Part shown: positions 56,351-64,000 of the stretch, one piece after another | Position numbering within the stretch: position 1 is the stretch's first letter | Layout: each line of letters starts with the position of its first letter | From: Paractinoplanes polyasparticus | Lineage (GTDB): Bacteria > Actinomycetota > Actinomycetes > Mycobacteriales > Micromonosporaceae | Length of the DNA: 64,000 nucleotides | Assembly (NCBI RefSeq): GCF_019710575.1 | Contig: NZ_JAHWFK010000031.1 | Location: 186,001 to 250,000 of the forward strand | Direction: 5' to 3' | Made by a program: the position numbers and the translations under genes | Notes under the pieces: generated by a model | What the model was told of the DNA's origin: nothing | Seen by the model: only the letters and a program-made list of their open reading frames with translations | The model's database searches: none

Positions 56351-56524
56351 CGGAGTTCTCCCGGGCAGCCGGAGTCAGTGACCGCTCCACAGTCGCGAAA
56401 CCCACGCCGGAAGTCGTCGTCCAGCCACAGACGGCCGTCTACGACAATTGCGGTATCCGGCGCCGTGCCCGGTACCACGCCGGGAGGACGCCACCGGATC
56501 GCGCCGGGCGTAGGGTCGGCCGTG

Positions 56525-58255
56525 ATGAACACGACCGAGGGACACCTGCTGGGACGCTGGCGCGTGATCGCCGAGCGGCCGCTGCTGGTCGATTTCGTGC
56601 TCGCCCTGGTGCTGGCGGCCGCGGTGTTCAAGGCGGCGCTGCCGGAGTCCACGCACCGGCCGAACGGCTGGGACGTGCTGATCGCGGTGGTGGCGTTCGT
56701 GGCGGTCATGGGCCGCCGCCGCCGGCCGATGACCGCGCTGGCGATCGCCACCACGGCCACTGCCGCCGCCGTGGTCCAGGAGGTCAACAATCCGGGCCTG
56801 ATCGTGGCGCTGGGCGTCATCACGTACTCGATCGCCGCCCACACCGATCGGCGCCGGGGCTGGTTGTGCGCGCTGGCCGCGTCATCGGTGGTCTATGTGA
56901 CCGTGGTGCTGCTCAACCGGGACGTGTGGCTGCGCCCCGACGTGCTCGGACTGTTCGCCTGGGTCTTCCTGGCGGCCGCGGTGGGCGACGCGGCCCGGTC
57001 GCACCGGGCGTATGTCCGCGAGGTGGAGGAGCGGGCCCACCGTGCCGAGCACAGCCGCGAGGAGGAGGCCCGCCGCCGGGTCACCGAGGAGCGGCTGCGC
57101 ATCGCCCGCGAGTTGCACGACGTGGTGGCGCACCACATCGCGGTGATCAACGTGCAGGCCGGCGCGGCCACCCACATCCTCGACCGCCGGCCCGACCAGG
57201 TGGCGCCCGCCCTGAACCACATCCGGGAGGCGTCGAACAGCGTGCTCTCCGAGATCCAGTCGGTGGTGGGCGTGCTGCGCAGCGCGGACGAGCCGGACGA
57301 CACCGAGCCGGCGCCCAGTCTCACCCGGCTGCCCGACCTGCTGGCCGGTCTCGCGGCGGCCGGTTTTCCGGTGAAGTTCCGTCAGCTCGGCGAGCCGGGG
57401 GAGCTGCCGGTGGTGGCCGACCTGGCGGCGTACCGGATCGCGCAGGAGGCGCTGACCAACGCGTACAAGCATGGCGCCGGCACCGCCCGGCTCACGGTGC
57501 GGCACACCCCGGAGGCGGTCGAGATCGAGGTGGTCAACCCGCTGCCCGTGGGCGCGGCCGAGTTGGGTTCCGGATACGGGCTGCTGGGCATGCGGGAGCG
57601 CGCCGCATCCGCGGGCGGCACTCTCACCGTGGGGCCGACGGGCAGCGATTTCCGCGTACGGGCGGTGCTGCCGGCCGGCGCGCCGGCGCCCCGATTCGGC
57701 TCTCCACCACGCGAGCCGGCCCGCAGCGCCGGCCTGCTGCACGACATCGTGACCGGCCACATGGTGTCGGTCGTCGAGCAGACGCGCGCGGCCACGCGCC
57801 TGCTCGAGAGCCCCGGGGCGGTGGCGCCGTCGCTCGCCCACATCCAGCGGGCGTCGGACTCCCTGCTCACCGAGATGCATTGCGTGGCCCGCCTGCTCGG
57901 CATCTCCGACGAGCCTGCGCCCGGGCTCCGCGGGCTGTCCGAGTTGCCGGCGCAGCTGGCGGCGACCGGGATGACGGTGGAGCTTCAGGTCCGCGGCGAA
58001 CCGCGGCCGCTGCCCACGGCGACCGACCGGGCCGCGTACGAGACCATCGCCGAGGCCGTGGCCGGGGCGCACCGGCTCACCGTGCGAGCGGTCCGGCTCA
58101 CCGTGCGGTACCGGCCGGACGCGGTCGAGATCGAGGTGGTCAGCAACGAGGGGGACGGCTACCGGATGCAGGCGGTGCTGCCGGTGGCCTCTCCGGCGCC
58201 GCAGACGGCCCCGGGATGCGGAGTCGTGCCCCGCAGCCGGGTGCGGTCGGCGTGA
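56525..58255 (+). CDS. NarX-type sensor histidine kinase with a second, degenerate kinase core (module B)
   Basis: About 576 aa, ATG at 56525 (typical relatives are about 400). Four to five transmembrane helices, then a complete core: 'RIARELHDVVAHHIAVINV' (His about 198), N box 'AQEALTNAYKHG' (Asn about 312) and G box 'GSGYGLLGMRERA' (348-360). After 'VRAVLPAG' a second copy begins at about 404: 'LLHDIVTGHMVSVVEQTRAAT', 'SLAHIQRASDSLLTEMHCV', 'LAATGMTVELQVRGEPRPLP' and 'VRYRPDAVEIEVVSNEG'. This copy keeps the LHD histidine but has 'EAVAGAHRL' in place of the N box and lacks the G box. Its stop overlaps the regulator's GTG. Confidence 0.9.
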   Translation: MNTTEGHLLGRWRVIAERPLLVDFVLALVLAAAVFKAALPESTHRPNGWDVLIAVVAFVAVMGRRRRPMTALAIATTATAAAVVQEVNNPGLIVALGVITYSIAAHTDRRRGWLCALAASSVVYVTVVLLNRDVWLRPDVLGLFAWVFLAAAVGDAARSHRAYVREVEERAHRAEHSREEEARRRVTEERLRIARELHDVVAHHIAVINVQAGAATHILDRRPDQVAPALNHIREASNSVLSEIQSVVGVLRSADEPDDTEPAPSLTRLPDLLAGLAAAGFPVKFRQLGEPGELPVVADLAAYRIAQEALTNAYKHGAGTARLTVRHTPEAVEIEVVNPLPVGAAELGSGYGLLGMRERAASAGGTLTVGPTGSDFRVRAVLPAGAPAPRFGSPPREPARSAGLLHDIVTGHMVSVVEQTRAATRLLESPGAVAPSLAHIQRASDSLLTEMHCVARLLGISDEPAPGLRGLSELPAQLAATGMTVELQVRGEPRPLPTATDRAAYETIAEAVAGAHRLTVRAVRLTVRYRPDAVEIEVVSNEGDGYRMQAVLPVASPAPQTAPGCGVVPRSRVRSA

Positions 58256-59885: not shown

Positions 59886-60764
59886 ATGTCGATACGCCGG
59901 AGTGACCTGTTGTTGCTGGCCGTGGCGGTGGTGTGGGGCAGCAGCTACCTGGCCGCGCAGACACTCGTCCTGGCCGGTGGGGTGCTCGCCGTGCTGGCGC
60001 TGCGCTTCGCCGTTTCGGCGATCGCCCTCGCGCCGGCCATGGCCGGGCGGCAGCTGAGCCGGCCGGAGCTGCGGGTCGGGGCGCTGCTGGGCCTCACTCA
60101 GGCGGCGGTGCTCGTGCTGGAGACGTACGGGGTGGCGCTGACCAGCGCGACCAACGCCGGGGTGCTGATCAGCCTGACGATCCTGCTGACGCCGGCGCTC
60201 GAGGGCGCTGTGCGCCGGCGGTGGCTGCCGAGCCGGTTCTTCGTGGCCGCTGCGGTGGCTGTGGCCGGGGTGGTGCTGCTCGTCGCCGGCCCGGGCCTGC
60301 GCGCGCCGACGGCGGGCGACGCGCTGATGCTCGCGGCGGCTGTCGTCCGCGCGGCCCATGTGACGCTGTCCGGGCGGCTGACGGAGGGCCGGCGGTACGA
60401 CACGGTGACGCTCACCTGGCTGCAGATGGTGGTCGGCACGGTCCTGTTCACGATCGTCGCGGCGCCCACCCTGCCCTCGGCGGTGCGCGCCTTCGGGCCT
60501 GGTCACTGGCTCGGCGTGCTGTACCTCGCGCTGGGCTGCAGCGTGTTCGCGTTCCTGGTGCAACTGTGGGCGATCCGGCGTACGTCGGCGGCCCGCGCGA
60601 GCCTGCTGCTGGGCACCGAACCGGTGTGGGCGGTGCTGATCGGGGTCGGTGTCGCCGGCGAGCGCCTGACCGCGGTCGCCGTCGCCGGGATCGCGCTCGT
60701 CCTCGCCGGCACCTACTACGGCCAGCGCGTCGAGGCCGGCCATCGCGCGCTTACCCCGGTCTGA
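59886..60764 (+). CDS. EamA/DMT-family transporter
   Basis: 292 aa, ten transmembrane helices arranged as two EamA repeats: 'LLLLAVAVVWGSSYLAAQTLV' opens the first and 'GDALMLAAAVVRAAHVTLSGRL' the second. 'ALTSATNAGVLISLTILLTPALEG' and 'RRTSAARASLLLGTEPVWAVLIG' are the conserved ends of each half. The family exports amino acids or other metabolites. Probably regulated by the divergent LysR protein. Confidence 0.92.
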   Translation: MSIRRSDLLLLAVAVVWGSSYLAAQTLVLAGGVLAVLALRFAVSAIALAPAMAGRQLSRPELRVGALLGLTQAAVLVLETYGVALTSATNAGVLISLTILLTPALEGAVRRRWLPSRFFVAAAVAVAGVVLLVAGPGLRAPTAGDALMLAAAVVRAAHVTLSGRLTEGRRYDTVTLTWLQMVVGTVLFTIVAAPTLPSAVRAFGPGHWLGVLYLALGCSVFAFLVQLWAIRRTSAARASLLLGTEPVWAVLIGVGVAGERLTAVAVAGIALVLAGTYYGQRVEAGHRALTPV

Positions 60765-60784
60765 TCCCACCGTGCGAGCGCTGG

Positions 60785-62050
60785 TCAGCGCACCTTGCGC
60801 ACCCGGGTCACGCCGAGGGCGCCGAGGATGCCGAACAGGGCGCCGCCGAGAAAGAGGCCGGGATAGCCGAACGCGGCGATGACCCCGGGGGCCGCGATGG
60901 GGATGAGCGACTGGGGTAGCGATTGGGCGAGGTTGGCCACGCCGAGGTCCTTGCCCGCGTCCTCCTCGCTCGGCAGCACGTCGGCGATGAGGGCGAGTTC
61001 GACGGCGAAGAAGGCGCCCACCCCCGCGCCCAGGATGAACTGGCCCAGCAACAGCACCGGAATCGTCGACGAGAGGGCGATGACGGTGAGACCGCCGGTC
61101 GCGATCAGCGACGAGAGGATGACGAACGGCTTGCGCCGGCCGAGCCTGTCGGAGAGCCAGCCCAGCACGGGGGTGACCAGCAGCAGGCCGACCGCGTTGA
61201 CGAGCACGGCCTGGAAGACCATGGTCGGCGCCTCGTCGTCGCTGACGTTGAACTCCGCGATGAGGAAGTACGTCAGGTAGCTGGTGGCGGTGAACTGCGT
61301 GGTGTTCAGGAAGAACCGCGTCAGCCAGGCCCAGCCGAGGTCGGGGTGCTTGCGCGGGTTGAAGACGAACGATCCGAACAGGGTCTTCACGTCGAGCCGT
61401 CCGACCGGCCGCTCGGTGCGGACCTTGTCCCTGATCGGCGCGACCACGGCGAGCATGAGCACGACGCCGGACAGGCTCGGGATCAGACTCTGCAGGGGGC
61501 CGATGGGGAAGAGCTGCACCAGGAACGTGGCGCCCACGCCGCCGACGTTCTGGGCGAGGCTGATGAACGAGGCGACGCGTCCACGCCGGTGAGGTTCGAC
61601 CTGGTCGGGCAGCAGGGCGATCAGTGCGGCGAGCGAGAGGTTGAGGCCGATCTGGGCCACGCTCCAGCCCAGCAGGACGACCGGCACGTTCGGCGCGAAC
61701 GCGATGACGGCGACGCCGGCGTAGCCGATGACGGCGCCACTGAAGATCCACGGCTTGCGCATGCCGAAGCGGCTCATGGTCCGGTCGGACAGCCGTCCGG
61801 CCAGCGGGTTGGTGACGAAGGAGAAGAAGGCGCCGACGCCGAGCACGATTCCGAGGTTCGTCGCCGCGCCGTCGACGTCCAGCTCGCGCAGCCGCAGGGC
61901 GATCGTGACGGCCAGCGGGGGCACCAGGGCGATGGACCAGCCGAGCAGGGCGAGGGGTATCGCCGCGACGGCGTACCGGGATCGTGCGGGCGCGCCGTCC
62001 TGCGGCGGGACTTCGGCGACGGACACGGGGGTGCTGCGGGATTCGTCCAC
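60785..62050 (-). CDS. MFS transporter, sugar-type candidate
   Basis: About 421 aa from the GTG at 62050, seven bases after AGGA. Twelve hydrophobic helices; MFS motif A-like loops 'NPLAGRLSDRTMSRFGMRKPW' and 'GWLSDRLGRRKPFVI' follow helices 2 and 8. The pattern 'GRLSDRTxxRxGRRRPW' is that of the glycoside-pentoside-hexuronide/SLC45-like group, so a glycoside is a likely substrate. Its promoter carries the same operator and core as the GH38 gene, with the TetR gene in between, which supports a role in mannoside uptake. Confidence 0.85.
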   Translation of the reverse strand: MDESRSTPVSVAEVPPQDGAPARSRYAVAAIPLALLGWSIALVPPLAVTIALRLRELDVDGAATNLGIVLGVGAFFSFVTNPLAGRLSDRTMSRFGMRKPWIFSGAVIGYAGVAVIAFAPNVPVVLLGWSVAQIGLNLSLAALIALLPDQVEPHRRGRVASFISLAQNVGGVGATFLVQLFPIGPLQSLIPSLSGVVLMLAVVAPIRDKVRTERPVGRLDVKTLFGSFVFNPRKHPDLGWAWLTRFFLNTTQFTATSYLTYFLIAEFNVSDDEAPTMVFQAVLVNAVGLLLVTPVLGWLSDRLGRRKPFVILSSLIATGGLTVIALSSTIPVLLLGQFILGAGVGAFFAVELALIADVLPSEEDAGKDLGVANLAQSLPQSLIPIAAPGVIAAFGYPGLFLGGALFGILGALGVTRVRKVR

Positions 62051-62098
62051 GTCAGATCCTCTGAGCTGAGGGAATGCGGCTGCTGCGGCCGCGTGAGC

Positions 62099-62130
62099 GA
62101 ACCGTAACACCGAATTGTTCCGCGTGGAAC
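62099..62130 (-). promoter_or_regulatory. TetR operator and promoter of the MFS gene
   Basis: Read on the minus strand: GTTCC-ACGC-GGAAC (62117-62130), two bases, then TTCGGTGTTACGGTTC (62099-62114). The same arrangement, with identical arms and an identical 16-base core, precedes the GH38 gene at 62856-62887. The inverted repeat would overlap the -35 region and spacer of a promoter whose -10 lies in TGTTAC, so a bound TetR protein would block RNA polymerase. Confidence 0.8.
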
Positions 62131-62157
62131 TTTTTGTTGGTGGCTCCGGCCGAGGGG

Positions 62158-62796
62158 TCAGTCCTCGCGTGGAGTGCCGGTTTCGAGCAGGCGCTCGAGC
62201 AGGGCCATGCCGGCGTGCATGTCGGCGCCGGGGTCGAGCAGCCACTGGGTGGAGAGGCCGTCGAGCGCCGCGATCAGCAGGGCGGCCGCGGTGTCGAGCG
62301 GGATGTCGGCCCGGACGGTTCCGCGTTCGCGGGCGAACTCCAGCAGCGTCAGCGCCTGCCGGCGCAACGATCGATAGCGCTCGCGGAAGAACTCGCGCGA
62401 GTGCTCGTTGCCCGGTTCGAGCGCGCGGGCGACCATGCTGTGCCGCAGGGCCATGAGCCCGGGGACCTGCTGGGCGTAGTTCGCGGCCATCGCCGCGAAG
62501 CCCGGCGCCCGGTCGTGACCGGCCTCGTGCGCCTCGGCCAGCGCCTGGCGGTCCTTCTCCCGCAGCACCTCGAGGAAGAGCTCCTCGCGGGTCTCGAAGT
62601 AGCGCCGGAGCGCGGCGTGGCTGACCCCGATGGCTTCCCCGATCGCTCGCAGCGAGGTGCCCTCGAATCCGAGGTCGGCGTAGACCTCGACGGCGCGGTC
62701 GAGAATCTGCCGGCGACGGAGAATTCCCTTCGGGTAGCGCCCCCGTGCGCCCTGCCCGGACACCGGCGAAACCTTCTCGGGGGCCTCGTCTGTCAT
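62158..62796 (-). CDS. TetR-family transcriptional regulator
   Basis: About 212 aa from the ATG at 62796, behind AGGGAGGGAG. N-terminal HTH 'RRRQILDRAVEVYADLGFEGTSLRAIGEAIGVSHAALRRYFETREELF' (family pattern with the 'GTSLRAIGEAIGVS' turn). The helical ligand domain resembles the TetR_C_13/6-type group ('RADIPLDTAAALLIAALDGLSTQWLL'). It sits between the MFS and GH38 genes, both of which have the same inverted-repeat operator; the GH38 site also lies in this gene's own divergent promoter, implying autoregulation. Confidence 0.93.
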   Translation of the reverse strand: MTDEAPEKVSPVSGQGARGRYPKGILRRRQILDRAVEVYADLGFEGTSLRAIGEAIGVSHAALRRYFETREELFLEVLREKDRQALAEAHEAGHDRAPGFAAMAANYAQQVPGLMALRHSMVARALEPGNEHSREFFRERYRSLRRQALTLLEFARERGTVRADIPLDTAAALLIAALDGLSTQWLLDPGADMHAGMALLERLLETGTPRED

Positions 62797-62851
62797 CTCG
62801 CGCGTTCTCCCTCCCTTGCTGGGTGCGACTCCCGCCACCTTAGTGACGCTG

Positions 62852-62887
62852 AAAAGTTCCGGGTGGAACTTTTCGGTGTTACGGTTC
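62852..62887 (+). promoter_or_regulatory. TetR operator and promoter of the GH38 gene
   Basis: AAAAGTTCC (62852-62860) and GGAACTTTT (62865-62873) form a perfect inverted repeat with a four-base spacer, followed by the core TTCGGTGTTACGGTTC (62872-62887), identical to that before the MFS gene. With -10 in TGTTAC (62877-62882) the transcript would start about 62889-62891, right at the ATG at 62892, so the mRNA is probably leaderless or nearly so. The site lies between the divergent TetR and GH38 genes. Confidence 0.82.
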
Positions 62888-62891
62888 CGTC

Positions 62892-64000
62892 ATGCATGAC
62901 AACGACGGCCAGGCGCAGCTGCGCATCGGCAATGTGCTGAGCACCCGGCTCGGACCGCGCCTCTATCGGCGGATCGCGCCGCTGACGGTGACGGCCTGGG
63001 AGGCGCCCGGCGAACCGGTCCCGTTCCGGGAAGCGGTCACCCAGTCCTTCCAGCCCTTCTCGGCCGGGCAGCGATGGAGCAGGCCCTGGGGCACGACCTG
63101 GTTCCACGTCACCGGCGCGGTGCCGCCGGGCTGGGGCGGCGCCGGCACGGCCGTCCAGATGCTGGTGGACCTCGGATTCAGCGGCCTGCTGCCGGCCTTC
63201 CAGGCCGAGGGGCTGGTGTACCGGCCCGACGGTTCGATCGTCAAGGGCCTCGAACCGTTCAACCACGGGGTCGACATCGACCCGGCCGGTGACGCCGACG
63301 TCGACTTCTACGTCGAGGCCGCGTCGAATCCGAACCTGCTCGAGCACTTCTTCGCGACGACGCTCGCCCCGGCAGCCGGGGGAGCGCCCCTCCCGTCCGG
63401 ATTCGCCTCGCCACGCCGGTCCGACGTGGTTCACCTCGGCGACAAGGCGACCGCCGGCGCCGAGCCCATCTACACCCTCCGCCAGGTCGCGCTGGTCGAG
63501 CGCGACCTCGCCGTGGACGCGCTGCTGCGGGACGCCGCGGGACTCATGGGCCTGATGCGGGAGCTCGACGCCACCTCGCCGCGCCGGGCCGCTGTCCGGC
63601 ACGCGCTCGAGCGGATGTGCGACGTTCTCGACCCCGACGACATCGAGAACACGGTGACGGCGGCCGCCGCCGAGCTGAGGCAGGTTCTCGCCGCACCCGC
63701 CCACCCCAGCGCCCACTCGATCGTCGCGGTCGGCCACGCCCACCTCGACTCGGCCTGGTTGTGGCCGGCCCGCGAGACGGTCCGCAAGGCCGCGCGCACG
63801 TTCTCGAACGTGCTCACCCTGATGGACGCCGACCCCGACTTCGTCTTCGCCGCGTCCAGCGCCCAGCAGTTCGACTGGGTCAGGCAGTTCTATCCCGCCC
63901 TCTTCGAACGGATCCGGGCCCGGGTCCACGAGGGACGGTTCGTTCCGGTCGGCGGCATGTGGGTCGAGAGCGACACCAACATGCCCGGCGGCGAGGCCCT
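62892..64000 (+). CDS. Alpha-mannosidase, GH38 family (partial, runs off the end)
   Basis: Open from ATG 62892 (MHDNDGQAQLRIGNVLSTRL...) to the window end, 369 codons without a stop; full-length relatives are about 1000 residues. The N-terminal part (to about residue 270) is the beta-rich domain found in bacterial and fungal/vacuolar GH38 enzymes; the catalytic domain begins 'VAVGHAHLDSAWLWPARETV' with the zinc ligands His and Asp of the HxHLD motif, then 'FAASSAQQFDW' and 'GGMWVESDTNMPGGEA', matching GH38. It cleaves alpha-mannosides with retention. Absence of a signal peptide places it in the cytoplasm, so mannosides must be imported, plausibly by the linked MFS protein. Confidence 0.93.
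   Translation, partial: MHDNDGQAQLRIGNVLSTRLGPRLYRRIAPLTVTAWEAPGEPVPFREAVTQSFQPFSAGQRWSRPWGTTWFHVTGAVPPGWGGAGTAVQMLVDLGFSGLLPAFQAEGLVYRPDGSIVKGLEPFNHGVDIDPAGDADVDFYVEAASNPNLLEHFFATTLAPAAGGAPLPSGFASPRRSDVVHLGDKATAGAEPIYTLRQVALVERDLAVDALLRDAAGLMGLMRELDATSPRRAAVRHALERMCDVLDPDDIENTVTAAAAELRQVLAAPAHPSAHSIVAVGHAHLDSAWLWPARETVRKAARTFSNVLTLMDADPDFVFAASSAQQFDWVRQFYPALFERIRARVHEGRFVPVGGMWVESDTNMPGGEA

Follow-up and report, generated by a model that had tools for sequence, protein, structure and literature searches.

The MFS, tetR and GH38 genes of a Paractinoplanes polyasparticus locus appear to form a conserved regulon under one local TetR protein and two candidate operators, a common type of genetic switch. 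We consider it very probable that the TetR protein is a local repressor that covers the -35 regions of MFS, tetR and GH38 and is released by a mannoside-type ligand. The locus lies within a stretch of 64,000 nucleotides (the window) and reads, from right to left, GH38 (+), operator 1, tetR (-), operator 2 and MFS (-) (Table 1). The initial annotation had joined the three genes into one TetR regulon, and this assignment gained support from operators kept in five of five genomes, operator letters that follow the TetR helix, the likeness of GH38 to alpha-mannosidases and the MFS_2 match of the transporter.

Table 1. Genes, operators and promoter elements of the GH38-tetR-MFS locus (window numbering)
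Feature	Position	Strand	Evidence or remark
MFS transporter, GTG start 62050, ribosome-site-like AGAGGA upstream	60785..62050	-	MFS_1 E 5.7e-34, MFS_2 E 1.1e-21
MFS promoter core, identical 16 bases; -10 box 62101-62106	62099..62114	-	exact copy; invariant in 5/5 genomes
Operator 2 (candidate), AAAAGTTCC-ACGC-GGAACAATT, before MFS	62113..62134	-	kept in 5/5 genomes, including AATT end
tetR, TetR-family regulator, 212 aa	62158..62796	-	TetR_N E 2.5e-12, TetR_C_6 E 7.3e-08
Predicted tetR -10 box TAAGGT; leader of about 34 bases from a start predicted near 62830	62837..62842	-	sequence, inferred
Operator 1 (candidate), AAAAGTTCC-GGGT-GGAACTTTT, between divergent tetR and GH38	62852..62873	.	perfect 9+9 palindrome
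GH38 promoter core TTCGGTGTTACGGTTC, extended -10 TG-T-TACGGT, -10 box 62880-62885	62872..62887	+	exact copy; varies in relatives
GH38 alpha-mannosidase, 1023 aa	62892..64000, on to 65963	+	four GH38-related Pfam domains

The TetR_N helix-turn-helix domain of the regulator scored 46.8 bits against a curated cut-off of 24, and TetR_C_6 also passed its cut-off. No equivalog model reached its cut-off on the protein, its best relative of solved structure was 2iai_A at E 1.1e-08, and the TetR_C domain gave no hint of a sugar ligand. The GH38 protein carries catalytic, middle and C-terminal domains (PF01074, PF09261, PF07748 and PF17677), all above their cut-offs, and no signal sequence was evident in it. 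Residues 11-1019 of its 1023 match the solved GH38 alpha-mannosidases 7ufs, 7ufr, 7ufu and 7uft (7ufs_A, E 2.5e-224), a near-full-length likeness by sequence match alone. Judging from the enzyme family of GH38, a mannoside may serve as both substrate and ligand.

A TetR gene beside an MFS gene is a common efflux layout, and the two could form a drug-efflux pair with GH38 as a bystander. Several efflux models match the MFS protein below their cut-offs, and a sister group of TetRs adjoins MMPL proteins in five of five loci. We nevertheless regard an efflux pair as unlikely, since the MFS protein passed the cut-off of the MFS_2 sugar-transport model, an operator of its own precedes GH38, and GH38 and MFS are still together in a genome (G155) where tetR is gone. 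Furthermore, an MFS protein 43% identical to that of the window sits with GH3 and GH42 beside a TetR of another helix type in G307, together with a palindrome with a 5-base spacer, and on a Bifidobacteriaceae contig that combines GH13, TetR and MFS, both the GH13 and the MFS gene are preceded by sites. With the GPH sugar:cation symporter model TIGR00792 the protein scored 50.3 bits, below the cut-off of 231.35, and it is therefore filed only as an MFS protein with an MFS_2 match. The MFS_1 and MFS_2 matches were obtained with a translation longer by one upstream codon; the MFS start was verified separately.

Palindromic candidate operators are present at the regulated promoters. The window contains just two perfect copies of GTTCC-N4-GGAAC (62117-62130 and 62856-62869); allowing one mismatch brings the total to six, against a shuffle mean of 1.60, and six was reached in 0 of 100 shuffles. 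The 16-base core TTCGGTGTTACGGTTC lies at exactly the two promoters, and when up to three mismatches were allowed the shuffle mean was 0.16, with no shuffle getting to two. Aligned over 62852-62887 (+) and 62134-62099 (-), the two blocks are identical at 31 of 36 bases, A/T flanks included, and the runner-up matches of this 36-mer in the window reached 24 and 23 (both are the palindromes on the opposite strand) and 22. The duplicated operator-promoter block at MFS and GH38 described in the initial annotation is thus borne out by two exact palindromes, two exact cores and this 36-base agreement. The likeness extends beyond the proposed length of about 32 bp. Two further details were corrected: GTTCC-N4-GGAAC, taken as the full operator, is part of a longer one (AAAAGTTCC-N4-GGAACTTTT at GH38), and the two bases taken as a mere linker are the operator end, TT at GH38 and AA at MFS, in five of five genomes. 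We read the operator as a 22-bp palindrome and as the predicted TetR site.

Such sites are scarce. The exact TTCGGTGTTACGGTTC 16-mer is found only at these two places in the 10.68-Mb genome, with one further site at one mismatch, and the sole whole-genome match of the AAAANNTCCNNNNGGANNTTTT frame at up to one mismatch is operator 1; operator 2 is imperfect, with its AATT end, and hence falls outside that pattern. GTTCC-N4-GGAAC occurs at 17 places genome-wide (reversed control pattern, 3). We rejected the other places as operators, as the full A/T-flanked form is present only at the two described among the 17; at the nearest other site, C96:87755, the palindrome surrounds an AGGAGG ribosome site directly before an ATG, and a similar site is found in G222. 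Across the five genomes that carry this operator type, AAAGTTCC-N4-GGAACNNTT with at most one mismatch matched only the two operators and the ribosome-site look-alike G000:C96, and with two mismatches only a few scattered extra sites appeared (control pattern, 0 to 3 per genome).

Palindromes between genes may also be intrinsic terminators, and a terminator scan called 62117-62130 (+), a 5-pair stem with a T run, with 2 such calls compared with 0.6 in shuffles. This explanation is extremely improbable here and was rejected on position: the only call at 62117-62130 is on the + strand, where no gene ends, the tetR-to-MFS reading has no T run (AATTC follows), and operator 1 lies between two divergent starts. 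Moreover, the base letters track the TetR helix. Beyond the locus, a GH65 family gene about 3 kb past GH38 (69076-71451 in window numbering; L016:10076-12451, -) is without such an operator. Elsewhere in the window, at 56400-58200 (+), we noticed by eye, from the translation, a sensor-kinase-like frame in which the kinase region seems to be repeated, the second time in degenerate form.

A third correction concerns TTCGGTGTTACGGTTC: to judge from its bases, it is an extended -10 element whose spacing from the operator is fixed. The GH38, MFS and tetR promoters each have a TAnnnT -10 box without a recognisable -35, with a TG extension at GH38 and MFS. TAnnnT occupies 45 of the 64,000 window positions on the + strand, and no sigma-70-type hexamer pair was found within 60600-63000. 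The GH38 box ends 6 bases before the ATG; the predicted transcript start therefore falls on the A of the ATG, giving a leaderless mRNA. The MFS transcript is predicted to start near 62094, which would give it a leader of about 44 bases. According to a study on Actinoplanes sp. SE50/110, TAnnnT precedes 98% of mapped starts, transcripts are leaderless for 14% of coding sequences, and the -35 motif is nTGACn (PMC7682106). The TAnnnT just before the GH38 start codon resembles these leaderless promoters, whereas nTGACn is absent here and the operator stands in its place.

The same gap of 6 bases between -10 box and start codon was observed in 11 of 11 GH3-type loci, at L099 and at three of the five GH38 promoters, the other two having 7; at MMPL-type targets no start was found at such a distance. 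The MFS leader (62050-62100, -) is well conserved across the five genomes around CCTCAG-N-TCAGAGGA. A hairpin in this leader was unsupported (z-score -1.03; 31 of 200 shuffles fold equally well).

We examined conservation in other genomes by scoring 7 to 10 first-pass candidates per genome and taking loci for up to 30 matches. The TetR was present at 80-92% identity in at least 4 of 299 other genomes, and the nearest named relatives by TetR identity were Paractinoplanes pyxinae (92%) and P. ovalisporus (86%), which add no extra entries to the five-genome counts. Both operators are retained in all five Actinoplanes genomes found with the locus, and the upstream flanks diverge. Lack of the block in orthologous loci, named in the initial annotation as a possible refutation, was therefore not what this check returned. 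Gene order (MFS, tetR, GH38) is preserved in G222, G254 and G119. The MFS operator, AAAGTTCC-N4-GGAACAATTCGGTGTTACGGTTCG, is identical in the five genomes, and the GH38 operator is kept in each, although G155 has one altered half-site base and G119 an altered end base.

In G155 (L103:1595-1784 and L062:7225-7787), GH38 and MFS are divergent, their operators lie 146 bases apart, and tetR is missing between them. Both target operators remain despite this apparent loss of tetR in place, and short stretches resembling the tetR ends appear to us to persist there in order, the 3' one at only E 0.07. A TetR of the group is encoded at the end of another contig and runs off it, with 80% identity over the part present; the site upstream of this relocated tetR is degenerate, with 4 mismatches. 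Sites without an adjacent tetR might suggest that a different DNA-binding protein uses them, and the link between the TetR of the window and its sites is itself drawn from sequence comparison. We judge use by another protein very unlikely, as the sites accompany the TetR subfamily and vary with its recognition helix, and G155 does hold the group TetR on the other contig.

The relatives also bear on how the two promoters came to be alike. The initial annotation took the identical core as a sign that the whole promoter had been copied. The 31 of 36 agreeing bases in the window, the 15 of 16 core bases retained at GH38 in G155 and the restriction of a second operator of such form to one TetR clade (the GT clade described below) are consistent with copying. 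The MFS core is invariant in the five genomes, but the GH38 core drifts: it differs in all four relatives, by 1 base in G155 and by several in G222, G254 and G119. Matches between GH38 and MFS blocks are no higher within a genome than between genomes (the MFS blocks have 35 bases, so this comparison counts 35 positions rather than 36). In addition, the same TTTTC-NN-TGTTACGGT geometry, with the same -10 spacing, recurs at GH3 targets under other TetRs of the subfamily. Copying of the whole promoter is thus doubtful; shared constraint is enough to account for the identical core and explains it equally well.

Next to the locus itself, TetR relatives provide the evidence on operator recognition. 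We examined 58 TetR loci, of which 55 were counted after removing the repeats L111, L115 and L130 (L046-L053 are outside the count). Among the 35 TetRs whose recognition helix reads [ST]H[AP], 29 are preceded by an A/T-flanked TCC-N4-GGA palindrome, and none of the 20 others is; the six subfamily members in which it is missing upstream are L028, L044, L045, L100, L117 and L119. Several of the 20 others have AAAAC-type palindromes with a 5-base spacer. The palindrome was found in 0 of 20,000 random 340-base pieces of window positions 1-60660, and in 495 of 20,000 pieces taken across all the long loci, where the sites themselves are included. The subfamily frame, AAAA-NN-TCC-N4-GGA-NN-TTTT, is common to TetR relatives beside GH3, MMPL and GH13.

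Within this frame, the two NN bases of the half-site agree with the helix. GT accompanies SHAALRRYF (4 of 4), TA accompanies THPVLKHHF (5 of 5), and TA with TG occurs with THPTLVHYF (1). CC or CT is found with SHAALKHYF (11 of 11) and CC with SHAALRHYF (1) and SHAALLHYF (2), while THAALTHYF (5) has CC paired with CC, CT or TC. The resulting rule reads RR for GT, KH, RH, TH or LH for CC, CT or TC, and THP for TA or TG. Since the NN bases follow the recognition helix, the operator is tied to the TetR of the window. A tree built from 39 TetRs places the GT and THPVLKHHF groups each on one side of a branch (100/98), and the two groups plus L056 make up a clade (100/100). The GT and TA groups are thus one clade each, so few switches took place and the agreement between helix and operator rests on few events. 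An operator plus -10 with at most three mismatches was detected in 15 of 67 genomes of the genus (reversed control pattern, 0); 5 of these have the GT type and 12 the CC type, including two, G119 and G155, with both.

The neighbouring genes of the subfamily vary. All 11 loci L033-L043 have GH3 beside TetR, and all 5 of L029-L032 and L120 have MMPL there, by tblastn and, for some, Pfam. The MMPL-neighbouring sister group has a TA-type operator, AAAATATCC-N4-GGATATTTT. Gene calls around tetR in L068 and L104 are frame artefacts, and GH3 in L068 was established by tblastn. On the Bifidobacteriaceae contig (L056), GH13, TetR and MFS lie together. The GH13-tetR gap contains one site, and the gap from tetR to MFS a nested double operator, AAAATATCC...GGATATTTT (L056:5605-5640), followed by TG-C-TATGGT. 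The same contig has a weak GH3-like match (24%) at 1456-2910. In L106 a second site separates an isomerase-like gene from a divergent ABC transporter gene, and the second site in L105 is near divergent isomerase-like and aldo/keto reductase genes and overlaps one called frame. A scan of 7 GH3-type and 4 MMPL-type stretches gave no such second operator.

Occlusion by a TetR dimer, which would bind the 22-bp palindrome AAAAGTTCC-N4-GGAACTTTT, is the most likely mechanism. Counted from the predicted starts, operator 1 would span about -40 to -19 at GH38 and about -43 to -22 at the divergent tetR, and operator 2 about -40 to -19 at MFS. Because operator 1 overlaps both promoters, one occupied site would silence GH38 and tetR together; its position between the divergent genes is the layout required by autoregulation, which the initial annotation had proposed. 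Since these TAnnnT promoters have no recognisable -35, an occupied operator would exclude RNA polymerase. To go by GH38, the probable ligand is an alpha-mannoside or its product, which would bind the TetR C-terminal domain and lift repression; MFS would import the oligosaccharide and GH38 would cleave it inside the cell.

This arrangement resembles other TetR-family local repressors (TetR_N, PF00440) in its TetR_N and TetR_C_6 domains, its palindrome over the promoter and its divergent gene with an autoregulation layout, and differs in its predicted targets, a glycosidase and a sugar-type MFS. In Actinoplanes sp. SE50/110, AmlR is likewise a local repressor of an intracellular glycosidase gene, amlE, with a palindrome over the -35 region (PMC6828939). 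Unlike the TetR of the window, AmlR is of the PurR/LacI type, has a 12-base palindrome and is encoded in one operon with amlE; being LacI-type, it was rejected as a TetR relative (PMC6828939). Among the titles and abstract openings returned by a search of open-licence papers, none described a TetR controlling GH38 or GH3 in actinomycetes.

Overall, an alpha-mannosidase module gains a candidate regulator, operators and promoters that are open to direct testing. At somewhat better than even odds, an actinomycete TetR subfamily of which this locus is one branch reuses an operator-plus-promoter cassette, the frame followed by a -10 at fixed distance and often leaderless, before varied glycosidases, sugar enzymes and transporters. 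In this proposal the two half-site bases are rewritten with the recognition helix, which would insulate sub-regulons inside one cell, as in the two genomes with both GT- and CC-type sites, where cross-talk between subtypes is therefore measurable. Of wider value, the natural series of helix-operator pairs in the subfamily provides a basis for testing a TetR recognition rule.
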